A stretch of 64,000 nt of DNA from an uncultured Rhizobiaceae group bacterium (GTDB lineage: Bacteria; Pseudomonadota; Alphaproteobacteria; Rhizobiales; Rhizobiaceae). Shown in pieces: positions 56,739 through 64,000 of the stretch; positions within the stretch are counted from its first letter, which is position 1; each line of letters starts with the position of its first letter. Under the pieces are notes generated by a model, which had not been told where the DNA came from, did not search any database, and saw only the letters and a program-made list of their open reading frames with translations. The position numbers and the translations under genes are program-made. The stretch lies in assembly GCA_938010435.1 (NCBI GenBank), contig CALLUS010000005.1, forward strand, positions 310,001-374,000, in the 5' to 3' direction.

Positions 56739-58661
56739 TTAGCGTGTCACGAAGCAGGCGCCGCCTTTGGCTTTCAAGCGGGAGCAAATTGTGTTCGCGG
56801 CAGATTTGCTCTCGGCCGGAATGCGCACACGATAGTAAGTGCCTTTGCCTTTGATAACGCCTTTGCGAATATCAACACCTTTACCACCAATCACACTTGC
56901 ATAGCGGCGAGACAGGTTTGCGTAGGATTTCTGTGCAGCCGCTGCTGAGCGTTGCGACGAAATTTGTACGGCGTAAGGCGAACTCACGCTTGCAACAGTA
57001 GTTGGCTCTGGCTTTTTAGCGACAACCTTCTTAGCCGGAACTTTTTTGACAGCAACTTTCTGAACCGGAACTTTTTGAGTCGCGACATTCTTCACTGCCA
57101 CTTTCTTTGGCGCAGGCTTTGCGACTTTCGCAACAGGCTTAGCCTTCACCGGGGTAGCGGTTGGCGCAGCAACTGATGTCGTTTCACTAGCAACCAATTC
57201 AGGTTTCAAAGCCAAAGTTGGTTCTGTGATTTCAGCCGCAGCAACGGTCAAAGGTTTTTTCGCCGCGTTTCCGGCAGTTGTTAAAATTGTACCATCTGGT
57301 TTCACAACAACAGTACGAACACGTCTTGGCTGAATACGCACACCAGTCTGGGGCTCTGCGCCGTTTGTGCTGGCTCTGATCACCGTCTTATCCGGCGTTG
57401 CTTTCGCAGCGACTTTAATCGGCTTCTCAGAAGTATCTTTCAGTTTGGTTTGCTTGGGTGCCGTGTTCTCACCACCAACAGACTTGTAAACAGCCTGATC
57501 TTGGTTCGGAACTACTTTGCCACCAGTGTCTTTCGGTTTCACTTTAGCGGGTGCGCTTGCCGCCAAAATTGTGGGGGTTGGGCCATCTGAACTGTCGAAC
57601 ATATTCCAACCGGCAGCAGCAACACCGCCCATCAAGGCAACAGCAACCACAGCCAACGCAATGCGTTTTCCTGCACCACCAGACGTTTGTCGATCATACA
57701 TATACGGTGGTGGTATCAAAACTTCTTCTTCTGCAGGTGCAGCATAAGCCTGTTCAACGGATGCAGCTTGTGCATATTCCATTGGCTGGCTGGCAACGGT
57801 TGCGGCAGCACCTGCGGCAACCGCGGCAGTTTCTGCAACATAATTTGTCGAAACAGGCGCATGGCTCACAGCAGCAGAATGCTCTGCAACGGGGTCTGTA
57901 AACGCAGCCGTGGGTTGTTCCGCCCATTCCGTTTCGGGTGCAATTTCCGGCATAGCCAACGCAGGCGGCGCTTCAACAGTTGGCTCAACAATTTCAGGTG
58001 TTGTCCACGGATCAAGCGTTTGCTCTGTTGCCACAGGCATTGGAACATCAACTTTTTCAGGCACATCCAATGTCCCTGCAGCCAGTTGTGAAAGCTCCGC
58101 AGCAATGGCTTCATCAGCAGCCGTATCCATGTTCGGAGAAATGCTTGCAGCAAACTCTGCTTCCATAGCCGCATCCAAAGCGGCTTCGGCAGCCACTTCT
58201 TCAGCCAATGCGCGGTCCAACTCATCAACAATCATATCACTGAAATCTGCTTCAGGCTCTTGTTCAAATGTCATTGAAGGCGCATCAGCAACTTCAATAG
58301 ACGACTCGACCTCAACCGGGATTTCGACTGGGGCGGCCTCAACAACAGCAACATCCTCAACGATGGGCGCAGCAGTTTCGGACGTACCAAAAGCACGGCT
58401 CAACTCTTGTTCAAGATCATAGTTCAAACGGGGAGCAGACTCGTTGGTCGCTTGGGTCCAATCGCTAGTCACTTCTTGCGGACGCGAAGCGGCAGGCGCC
58501 TCACCTGCAGGTCGCAACGTTTGTCCGTCACCGACCAATTTGGCCAGTTCTGCCAGCTCTTCTTCTGCGGCATTGGAGATTGAACAGAAAGGATATGCGT
58601 CATCCCCTTTAATCAATCCGTGAACAGGACCCATGAGGAAGTCGTCTTTGTACTCAAACAC
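56739..58661 (-). CDS. SPOR-domain protein with long Lys/Ala/Pro-rich region
   Basis: 640 residues, GTG start with AGGTG upstream. N-terminal cytoplasmic acidic region (ELAELAKLVGDG is the typical start), Glu/Ala-rich repeats to about residue 320, one membrane segment (IALAVVAVALMGGVAAAGW), then a periplasmic region with KVPVQKVAVKKVPAKKVVAK, and a C-terminal SPOR domain (YAVQISSQRSAAAAQKSYAN, YRVRIPAESKSAANTICSRL). SPOR domains bind denuded septal peptidoglycan. Between argS and nagZ, as is usual. Confidence 0.88.
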   Translation of the reverse strand: MFEYKDDFLMGPVHGLIKGDDAYPFCSISNAAEEELAELAKLVGDGQTLRPAGEAPAASRPQEVTSDWTQATNESAPRLNYDLEQELSRAFGTSETAAPIVEDVAVVEAAPVEIPVEVESSIEVADAPSMTFEQEPEADFSDMIVDELDRALAEEVAAEAALDAAMEAEFAASISPNMDTAADEAIAAELSQLAAGTLDVPEKVDVPMPVATEQTLDPWTTPEIVEPTVEAPPALAMPEIAPETEWAEQPTAAFTDPVAEHSAAVSHAPVSTNYVAETAAVAAGAAATVASQPMEYAQAASVEQAYAAPAEEEVLIPPPYMYDRQTSGGAGKRIALAVVAVALMGGVAAAGWNMFDSSDGPTPTILAASAPAKVKPKDTGGKVVPNQDQAVYKSVGGENTAPKQTKLKDTSEKPIKVAAKATPDKTVIRASTNGAEPQTGVRIQPRRVRTVVVKPDGTILTTAGNAAKKPLTVAAAEITEPTLALKPELVASETTSVAAPTATPVKAKPVAKVAKPAPKKVAVKNVATQKVPVQKVAVKKVPAKKVVAKKPEPTTVASVSSPYAVQISSQRSAAAAQKSYANLSRRYASVIGGKGVDIRKGVIKGKGTYYRVRIPAESKSAANTICSRLKAKGGACFVTR

Positions 58662-60649: not shown

Positions 60650-61894
60650 TTATCGCAGTTCGGGTGTATGGTCAAACCAACGCTTATGTTCGTGCACGGC
60701 GTAACGGTCAGTCATACCAGCCAGATAGTCCGCGATACGATAGGCACACGCGCGTTCATCCAGTCCATCCAAAGTCCATTCACGCCCGTCAGGCAGTTTC
60801 GCATGGCCGGATTGGAAGGCATCGAACAAATCACCCAGAATTTTCTGCGACGCCTCTACGGGCCGCATCACATCTTCGTGGCGGTACATGCGCTCAAACA
60901 TAAAGGCTTTGAGTGTCTTTTCCTGCTGTTCAATATCAGGTGAAAATTGCACCACCGCATAATCGAGTTCCCGCACCGCTTGCGCATCTTTTGGCTGCGC
61001 AACAGATAAACATGACACCGCTTCACGGATCACGTCTTCCACCATCAAAGTAATTTGCCTACGGACGATTTCATGAATGGTACGACTGCTATCCAAATTC
61101 GGGTACCGTTCTTGGATGGTTTTTAAAATTTCAAAACACATGGGCACTTCGGCCAGATCAGCGATATCAAACAACCCTGCCCGCAATCCGTCTTCAAGGT
61201 CATGATTGTCATAGGCAATATCGTCCGCAATCGCAGCACATTGGGCTTCAACCGATGGCCAGCTCCACAATTGAAGATCGTGTTTTTTGTTGTAGTCCAA
61301 AATCGCAGAGGGCACAGGTCCATCAAGACCGTCACCATCTTTATCCGTCAGCGGACCATTGTGTTTGACCAACCCTTCCAGCGTTTCCCAACTCAGGTTC
61401 AACCCATCAAATTCAGCATAGCGGCGCTCAAGATCCGTCACCACACGCAAAGACTGAGCGTTGTGATCGAACCCATCAAAGGTTGCAAGTTTCTCATTCA
61501 ACACACGTTCGCCTGCATGACCAAACGGCGTGTGGCCAAAATCGTGGACAAGCGCCAGAGCTTCGGCCAAATCTTCATCCACTTTCAAAGCCCGTGCCAA
61601 TGCCCGTGCAATCTGCCCCACCTCAATTGTATGGGTCAGCCGTGTTCGGTAGTGGTCTCCTTCATGATGCACGAACACTTGCGTCTTGTGTTTGAGCCTC
61701 TTGAACGCGTCACTGTGAATAATTCGGTCACGGTCCCGTTGAAAATCGGTGCGTGTCGGACTGGATGGTTCTTCAATCAAACGCCCGCGCGTGGCGAACG
61801 CATCAGCCGCATAAGGCGCCAATACCAAGCCTCCCGCCACAGTGCATACAGAGGTCAAATCAAATTCAGAATGAGTCGCAGTGTCTTTTTTCAT
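60650..61894 (-). CDS. dgt: Deoxyguanosinetriphosphate triphosphohydrolase-like protein
   Basis: HD-domain dNTPase (type 2), 414 residues. HD metal ligands at [20 protein letters not shown] and [20 protein letters not shown], followed by the [18 protein letters not shown] motif. Between argS and erpA, the usual place; removes dNTPs, which also limits phage replication in some bacteria. Confidence 0.95.
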
Positions 61895-61987: not shown

Positions 61988-62344
61988 ATGAGCCAAGCAG
62001 TAGAGATTGAAGTTCCAGAAGGCGAAGTCGTCGTGTCGGACGCTGCTGCCAAGCGTGTCGCCAAAATCCTGTCGACAGAACCAGATATGAACGCGCTCCG
62101 CGTTTCCGTTGAAGGTGGTGGTTGTTCAGGCTTTTCATACAAGTTTGATCTCACCGCAGACAGCCAAGATGATGATCTAGTGTTGGAATCCGAAGGCGCT
62201 CGTGTACTCGTTGATCCCATTTCACTCATGTATATGGGCGGCTCGGTGATCGATTTTGTGGATGATTTGATCGGACAAAGCTTCCAAATCAGAAACCCCA
62301 ACGCCACAGCAAGCTGCGGCTGCGGCACAAGTTTCTCAATGTAA
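61988..62344 (+). CDS. erpA: Iron-sulfur cluster insertion protein ErpA-type (HesB/IscA)
   Basis: A-type carrier, 118 residues, AAGGA before the ATG. Three Fe-S cysteines in GGGCSGFSY and ASCGCGTSF. Divergent from dgt. Confidence 0.93.
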   Translation: MSQAVEIEVPEGEVVVSDAAAKRVAKILSTEPDMNALRVSVEGGGCSGFSYKFDLTADSQDDDLVLESEGARVLVDPISLMYMGGSVIDFVDDLIGQSFQIRNPNATASCGCGTSFSM

Positions 62345-62425: not shown

Positions 62426-64000
62426 TTACATTTTCTTCATTGCACGTTCCCATGCAGCACGGTCAGACTTTGCCTGAGGTGCTTTACCGCCGAGAATGTC
62501 AGTGGCCTGCTTCTTCCACTTTTCACTTTCAGGGCGACCGCCTGTGCCGGCTTTTTGAGCTGCTTTTTCAAGGTTAGCATCTGACATTTTGATCAAACCT
62601 GACAGGTTTTTCACGCCTGCCCCTTGCAAAGACTTAGCTGTCTTTGGACCAATGCCATCTACAAATTCCAGATCATCAATCGCTGATCCGGCAAGCTTAC
62701 CTTTAGCAGCAGAAGCTTTCTTCGCTGCAGGAGCCTTTTTGGCTGCAGCTTTCTTAGCCACAGCCTTTTTTGCGGGTGCCTTGGCAGCTGTCTTTTTGGG
62801 CGCTGCTTTCTTCACTGTTGTCGAAGCGGATTTCGTCGCAGTCTTAGCTTTTGCCTTGACCGTTTTCGCAGCACTTCCAGCAGATGATGCCGCACTGCTT
62901 CCAGCACCAGCAACAGCCGCTACTCCACCAGCAACGGCTACACCACCGCCAGAGATCAATGCTGCCGCTGAAGTGGACTGTCCAGCATGTGAAGCTGCAC
63001 TATCAACTGCATGAGCAATGCCACGTGTACCAGCGCCAGCTTGTGAACCTGCACCACCGTGTGAGTGGTCAGATGTTGAATCAAGACCAGCCATCGCAGT
63101 CGTATGATCATCATCAGATTCATCTTCTGGCAAAAGCAGGTTCAACACGATTGCAATGAACGCAGCTGGAAGCAGACCAGAAGTCAACAGAATTTTCCAA
63201 GTGCCATTCATGTGCACGAGTGCATTCGGAACCAGTTGCAGACCCAAACCAATGGAAATTGCTGTCGCAAAAATAAGCATGTTACGACGGTTCCAGTTCA
63301 CATCAGACAACATGTTAATGCCAGCTGCCGCAACCATACCGAACATCACAATCACGCCACCGCCCAAAACTTCAATTGGAACAGTTGAAATAATCGCGCC
63401 AACTTTTGGGATGAGACCACAGATAATCAGGAAAATTGCACCGATGGTGACAACACCACGGCTCATAATTCCAGTCATTGAGATCAAACCAACGTTTTGC
63501 GAAAACGAAGTGTTTGGCAAAGAACCGAAAATGCCAGCAATCGCTGTTCCCAAACCATCAGCATAAGTAGCGCCTGTGATTTCAGTATCAGTTGCTTCAC
63601 GGCCAGCACCACCTTTTGTAATACCAGATGTATCACCTACAGTTTCAATCGCTGATATAAACGCCATCAAACACATACCGATGATGATTGCCCAATCCCA
63701 TGCAAAACCAAATTTGAAAGGTGAAGGCGCAGCAAACCAAGCTGCATTGCCAACATTGCCGAATGCACGCGCAAAGTGAGCATCACCAAAGATATAGGCG
63801 TAGATGTAACCAGCAACGAGACCGATCAATATTGCTGCAACGGAGAGAAACCCCTTCGAGAAGAATTTAATCGCAAGCGTCACAATAATCACAACCAACG
63901 CAATGCTCCAGTTCCAAAGGGAACCGAATTCCATACCGGAAATGTCACCCTTAGCAGCCACGGCCTTATCAAGTGCGCCCATCGCAGGAACACCACCAGC
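62426..64000 (-). CDS. NCS2 nucleobase permease fused to H1-like tail and helix-hairpin-helix domain (5' end outside)
   Basis: Uracil/xanthine-type symporter; the frame is open at base 64000 so the first helices are missing. The permease part has FISAIETVGDTSG and SQNVGLISMTGIM, the NCS2 core, and ends at about 63130 (NLLLPEDESDDD). Then follow about 50 residues rich in Gly/Ser/His, a hydrophobic Ala/Gly stretch (62900-62965), a Lys/Ala block (62693-62872; KKTAAKAPAKKAVAKKAAAK) and a helix-hairpin-helix domain (about 62495-62677) with FVDGIGPKTAKSLQGAGVKN. HhH modules of this kind occur in COG3743 and Nuo fusions. The tail adds about 230 residues to a normal permease. No frameshift is seen. 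Confidence 0.85.
   Translation of the reverse strand, partial: AGGVPAMGALDKAVAAKGDISGMEFGSLWNWSIALVVIIVTLAIKFFSKGFLSVAAILIGLVAGYIYAYIFGDAHFARAFGNVGNAAWFAAPSPFKFGFAWDWAIIIGMCLMAFISAIETVGDTSGITKGGAGREATDTEITGATYADGLGTAIAGIFGSLPNTSFSQNVGLISMTGIMSRGVVTIGAIFLIICGLIPKVGAIISTVPIEVLGGGVIVMFGMVAAAGINMLSDVNWNRRNMLIFATAISIGLGLQLVPNALVHMNGTWKILLTSGLLPAAFIAIVLNLLLPEDESDDDHTTAMAGLDSTSDHSHGGAGSQAGAGTRGIAHAVDSAASHAGQSTSAAALISGGGVAVAGGVAAVAGAGSSAASSAGSAAKTVKAKAKTATKSASTTVKKAAPKKTAAKAPAKKAVAKKAAAKKAPAAKKASAAKGKLAGSAIDDLEFVDGIGPKTAKSLQGAGVKNLSGLIKMSDANLEKAAQKAGTGGRPESEKWKKQATDILGGKAPQAKSDRAAWERAMKKM

Follow-up and report, generated by a model that had tools for sequence, protein, structure and literature searches.

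Why should a nucleobase permease end in a basic arm and a helix-hairpin-helix (HhH) domain? The question arises from a gene at the edge of a 64,000-nucleotide stretch of the genome of an uncultured Rhizobiaceae bacterium (hereafter the window; G000:C5:310001-374000, part of a 3.57 Mb genome), for which an earlier note, made from the sequence alone, had proposed a transporter of the NCS2 family fused to a Lys/Ala-rich, histone H1-like segment and a terminal HhH domain. In the window the gene is a single open frame with no inner stops that loses its 5' end at the window edge; complete, it occupies G000:C5:372426-374513 on the minus strand and encodes 695 residues, laid out as an NCS2 permease (residues 1-464), a disordered Lys/Ala-rich linker and a folded HhH tail (Table 1). 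The permease-HhH fusion is real and conserved. With the permease, a known but obscure module gains a new host, and the breadth of that module's hosts is the greater surprise.

Architecture of the fusion

The core is matched by Xan_ur_permease of Pfam (PF00860) over residues 22-429 with 265 bits against a cut-off of 27, and by TIGR00801 of NCBIfam with 308.3 bits against a cut-off of 291.8; the PbuX-type profile TIGR03173, at 399.3 bits, falls narrowly under its cut-off of 414.15. A Foldseek search with the AlphaFold2 model returned UraA (5xls, E = 2.7e-15) and UapA (5i6c, E = 4.1e-14), and profiles and predicted fold together bear out the proposed NCS2 membership. Core residues 339-348 read QNVGLISMTG, which we take to be the QNxG motif of the permease family. 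The model has a folded core and a folded tail, with residues 466-606 between them at a predicted local distance difference test score (pLDDT) below 50 (blocks mostly 23-33).

The tail matches HHH_5 of Pfam over residues 613-650 with 20.0 bits, under the gathering cut-off of 27. When 23 tail domains from other hosts were made into a profile, with permease rows excluded, that profile (Z set to 4000) found the tail at E = 1.7e-12 and all nine known tailed permeases at E <= 2.3e-6, compared to a best E of 7.0 among 450 shuffles of the last 240 residues. The terminal HhH domain proposed earlier is thus confirmed, and by profile the permease tail is assigned to a dispersed HhH module carried by NuoE, L21, S2 and COG3743-type proteins. 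The domain-family profile also matches RadA (E = 1.4e-4) and polymerases, and the structure model of the tail matches Pol theta, RadA and Pol iota; the fold is shared as well with NusA AR2, where it is in complex with a protein. Matches in the PDB include protein-O of the Dinoroseobacter shibae RC-LH1 complex (E = 2.2e-23) and, at E = 3.7e-24, a chain labelled as a 41 kd complex I subunit; our literature search found no paper for structure 9wqv.

The linker has 148 residues, including 47 Ala and 20 Lys, and the composition of its last 70 residues (Table 1) agrees with the basic character claimed for it. Among tailed permeases the linker spans 99-229 residues, and its last 70 hold 10-21 Lys or Arg and at most one Asp or Glu (0-1) in all eight from the genus. 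The linker sequence changes freely yet remains basic.

Distribution of the tailed permease

Eight of the 15 genomes of the genus encode a tailed permease (the present one, G013, G010, G007, G004, G011, G002 and G009), three have untailed permeases only (G001, G005 and G012), and four have no full-length orthologue, among them G008, which has a piece of 26 residues at the edge of a contig. The proposed check in other genomes therefore recovered the in-frame architecture in seven further members of the genus and in G235, the sole tailed case outside it among the 70 of 394 genomes in a family sample with a close orthologue; tails were called there by frame length, two long frames were opened, and contig ends truncate at least four of the 70, for which no call can be made. 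In a class sample, 33 of 385 genomes have an orthologue, with no frame above 531 residues except the window's own. The fetched DNA of the 80 closest named loci, a set that may omit the closest records and in which a permease frame of more than 300 residues was recognised in 78, contains no HhH frame of at least 60 residues at E <= 1e-3, and none of these loci carries the tail as a separate downstream gene. The fusion is accordingly as rare as had been suspected. Nor was a separate HhH gene found beside the untailed permease of G035, where 90 bp lie between the permease end and erpA; its 728-residue frame was rejected as a tailed permease because the extra length is a 5' extension. We found no title or opening of an abstract describing this fusion or the host range of the module, in a search outside which most subscription journals lie.

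Host range of the HhH module

With the tail profile, 14 of the 15 genomes of the genus yield between 3 and 9 domains each. We sorted 83 distinct HhH frames (80 from the genus, one from G235 and two from the order) by host: L21 (15), NuoE (14), S2 (13), Dpp/Opp-type ABC ATPases (10), the permease (9), GlnQ-type ABC ATPases (8, with the domain near the N-terminus) and formate dehydrogenase (FDH) gamma (3). Pfam or NCBIfam confirmed at least one frame for each named host, and the others were sorted by short sequence signatures. The remaining 11 frames have a hydrophobic N-terminus and are apparently membrane-anchored; ten of them have two domains, and we take the group to be COG3743-like. The parallels that the earlier note drew with NuoE and COG3743-type proteins are thereby upheld, with the same domain on NuoE and paired HhH domains behind a hydrophobic N-terminus. 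Four genomes from two other genera add cytochrome c1 and PntA as hosts.

Beyond the genus, the domain occurs in 37 of 41 genomes of the family (one per genus, the present one included), 10 of 115 in a class sample (again with the present one) and 30 of 150 in a sample of the phylum, of which the family is part. We fetched 40 of the 127 matches in the family survey, picked for unusual frame length and hence not a fair sample; among them are LivG, a third kind of ABC ATPase (10 frames), cytochrome c1, PntA, an AcrB-type RND pump, an alpha/beta hydrolase and small proteins beside NuoE.

A tree of the domain, with 64 columns and many forks lacking resolution, intermixes the tails of NuoE and Dpp, and likewise those of S2 and L21, suggesting that hosts within such groups may exchange tails. 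The permease tails come together at only 88/0, with weak placement, and NuoE tails lie on other branches. Two L21 tails (from G056 and G060) end in GKPPRAK, and permease tails end in GKAPQAK, GKPPQAK or GKPARAK; this likeness is suggestive of an origin of the permease tail from an L21 tail, a derivation we did not adopt given the few columns and weak placement.

Several frames are worth recording. In one genome (G072), L279:79-4380 encodes the AcrB-family RND pump, its HhH tail following an acidic linker, and L280:2216-4333 the alpha/beta hydrolase with an HhH tail. A 1096-residue frame (L259:1-2163; G235:C116) contains three HhH domains in its fetched part, separated by acidic spacers, and is a possible scaffold for the tag. 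In the genome of the window, L006:1417-3069 (G000:C9), which from its sequence we presume to be the ATP synthase beta subunit, is extended at its N-terminus by a Lys/Ala-rich stretch and gives no match to the HhH domain; Lys/Ala matches apparently like that extension also lie in frames of 504-550 residues in other genomes.

Selection on the tail and its separability from the core

We compared ten pairs of tailed genes by the ratio of nonsynonymous to synonymous divergence (dN/dS), which was computable for the core in all ten, the tail in seven and the linker in five. The tail gave 0.010-0.049 in six pairs and 0.108 in the seventh, lower than the core in six of the seven; the core ranged from 0.021 to 0.151 and the linker from 0.16 to 0.28. 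This shows that the tail is under purifying selection. Among three saturated pairs the tail had diverged more than the core in two, both involving G010.

Permease core and tail are separable. The present gene and that of G013 are 79% identical in the core and 96% in the tail, compared to 91% and 41% for the present gene and that of G010. In G007 a tailed copy at the xthA-erpA locus and an untailed copy elsewhere (L202 and L203) share 1413 bp at 100% DNA identity, a block that stops five codons beyond the LPED end of the core and looks like the product of a recent gene conversion confined to the core of the permease. The identities between the present gene and that of G013 resemble this pattern on a longer time scale. 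A core tree of 43 of 46 rows (L027, L219 and L075 dropped) requires three changes, at least two of them by firm branches, between nine tailed and eight syntenic untailed rows, with 26 further untailed rows not counted. A single gain of the tail is not supported by this tree, which is itself unable to count gains because cores have been exchanged.

What the tail may do

Our tentative preference, held with somewhat less than even confidence, is for a purine symporter of the NCS2 family that has a docking domain tethered at its cytoplasmic face, with a protein or common scaffold as the docking partner. The core would move substrate. By way of the disordered arm, the HhH domain could extend to a partner and stay attached to it, the partner being common to other module-bearing complexes, among them complex I, complex III, transhydrogenase, formate dehydrogenase and ABC importers. 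The basic arm might add loose charge-based contacts with nucleic acid or acidic surfaces. Docking would co-localise the permease and leave its transported substrate unchanged. We infer docking and its partner, as we do the cytoplasmic side and purine substrate. The suggestion in the earlier note that the tail ties uptake to another membrane complex fits the presence of the same domain on many other inner-membrane complexes.

The nearest competitor is a nucleic-acid tether, in which the Lys/Ala arm and HhH domain would hold DNA or RNA at the membrane. A precedent comes from lipid droplets, where PAKKA motifs are reported to have both DNA-binding and droplet-tethering activity and where DNA is held by the Lys/Ala tail of the protein MLDS (PMC5504291). 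The fold common to DNA enzymes points the same way, as do the basic permease linkers of the genus and the basic linkers of other genera on Dpp/Opp (mean net charge per 60 residues +13.5, 6 frames), GlnQ (+10.0, 4 frames) and cytochrome c1 (+9.8, 4 frames). However, PAKKA occurs in just two of the eight permease linkers and is rejected as a conserved feature, and the permease tail domain has a mean net charge of +0.8 (range -5 to +5, 9 frames). Outside the genus a basic linker on every host is ruled out, with S2 (mean -11.7 per 60 residues, 6 frames) and the RND pump (charge -14) acidic, and NuoE of both signs (mean +1.0 per 60 residues, 16 frames). Nucleic-acid binding by the tail is possible, although fold similarity alone proves no function; we regard the tether as somewhat less likely than docking, and favour a protein-docking tag over it because some hosts have acidic linkers.

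Charge also raises the prospect of contact between ribosome and membrane, with basic tails of membrane complexes binding acidic tails of S2 and L21 and so bringing translation near. Within the genus, mean linker net charge per 80 residues is strongly positive on membrane hosts (+14.5 to +18.4 on NuoE, Dpp, GlnQ, FDH gamma and the permease) and negative on S2 (-12.6, 13 frames), and the domains of S2 and L21 are acidic (means of -5.1 and -3.9). Such contact nevertheless appears unlikely from these charges, as L21 linkers are basic (+8.1 per 80 residues) and NuoE linkers in other genera take both signs.

Selfish or neutral spread, by which a functionless module hitch-hikes onto gene ends, would account for the many unrelated hosts and for the differing presence of the module between close relatives; we consider it very improbable, since the tail is under purifying selection at high synonymous divergence and has been retained at its locus while the core was exchanged. 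An assembly or annotation artefact, such as a stop missing near 63130, is refuted because orthologues in nine genomes keep the fusion in frame, each beside xthA, and with no point found in its favour it deserves practically no credence.

Genomic context and substrate

The nine tailed genes all adjoin xthA and eight of them adjoin erpA; dgt and argS lie in the fetched DNA of eight and seven, respectively. The exception, G010 (L205), keeps xthA next to unrelated downstream genes, lacks erpA-dgt-argS in its fetched DNA and has dgt on another contig, which rules out a fully constant neighbourhood. G001, G005 and G012 have their untailed copies, and G007 its second copy, outside the xthA-erpA locus; in other genera, untailed permeases do occur between xthA and erpA. 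Near the permease locus, a large protein encoded at window positions 56739-58661 (-) has a Lys/Ala/Pro-rich stretch and a C-terminal end that we take to be SPOR-like.

Table 1. Features of the window in and beside the tailed permease gene; the names erpA and dgt are assumed from sequence.
Feature	Position	Strand	Remarks
NCS2 permease-linker-HhH gene, 3' part (residues 172-695 and stop)	62426..64000	-	continues to G000:C5:374513
Permease core within window, residues 172-464 of 695	63122..64000	-	Xan_ur_permease, UraA/UapA fold
Linker, residues 465-612	62678..63121	-	Gly/Ala/Ser-rich, then Lys/Ala-rich; predicted disordered
Linker basic half, last 70 residues	62678..62887	-	K+R = 20, D+E = 0
HhH tail domain, residues 613-695	62429..62677	-	sequence starts DDLEFVDGIGPKTAKSL
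erpA-like gene	61988..62344	+	convergent; beside tailed permease in 8/9 tailed genomes
dgt-like gene	60650..61894	-	member of same neighbourhood

Untailed relatives provide a hint of the substrate. Those of G012 and G001 are clustered with PuuE allantoinase/OHCU decarboxylase and ureidoglycine aminohydrolase, that of G005 adjoins a fragment of a ureidoglycine aminohydrolase gene, and the untailed copy of G007 adjoins (S)-ureidoglycine aminohydrolase. Because untailed copies adjoin ureide genes, and from the family itself, a purine substrate is likely, presumably of the xanthine/urate type. The genome of the window has a ureide gene on another contig and a single close permease, the tailed gene. 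UraA has both its N- and C-terminus in the cytoplasm; by analogy, the permease tail should face inwards, on the cytoplasmic side.

Discussion

The domain had previously been noted on single proteins, namely NuoE tails and protein-O, and its broad host range turns a curiosity into a testable question: which partner do the hosts have in common? In a wider reading that we think less likely than not, many bacteria of the family, here taken as Rhizobiaceae-like, would use one small HhH domain as a common address tag. Attached to respiratory complexes, nutrient importers and ribosomal proteins at their cytoplasmic ends, it would let one partner gather these machines at the inner membrane, with the permease a recent recruit. 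Should the tag indeed gather inner-membrane machines, a large bacterial group would prove to have a new level of order in its membranes. The permease lends itself well to such a test, since G007 has a DNA-identical core with and without the tail.

The gene resembles several known systems, each in part. NCS2/NAT permeases (UraA, UapA and PbuX) are alike in core sequence and fold; they differ in that the 80 nearest named loci are without an HhH frame and that, across the family and class samples, most orthologue frames lack the length for a tail. Histone H1- and PAKKA-type Lys/Ala tails are alike in linker composition, as AlgP-type tails may be, and to that extent the H1-like label given earlier stands; histone H1 has a globular linker-histone domain, however, and no linker-histone family was found in a Pfam search of the protein at E <= 0.1, and most of the permease linkers lack the PAKKA motif. 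L21 (PRK12278) and S2 (PRK12311) with HhH tails have the same domain type as the permease, but there the domain is acidic on average, as is the S2 linker. Protein-O of the D. shibae RC-LH1 complex (8yy9) likewise combines a membrane segment, a long flexible loop and this type of C-terminal domain, although its membrane part is a single helical hairpin and no transporter, and its C-terminal domain is invisible in the map; according to its authors, that domain resembles NuoE C-termini and is of obscure function (PMC12079452). NuoE with a C-terminal HhH domain (NCBIfam PRK12373), present in the genome of the window, shares both the Lys/Ala linker and the domain type with the permease, on a host that is instead a subunit of complex I and with tails from other branches of the domain tree.
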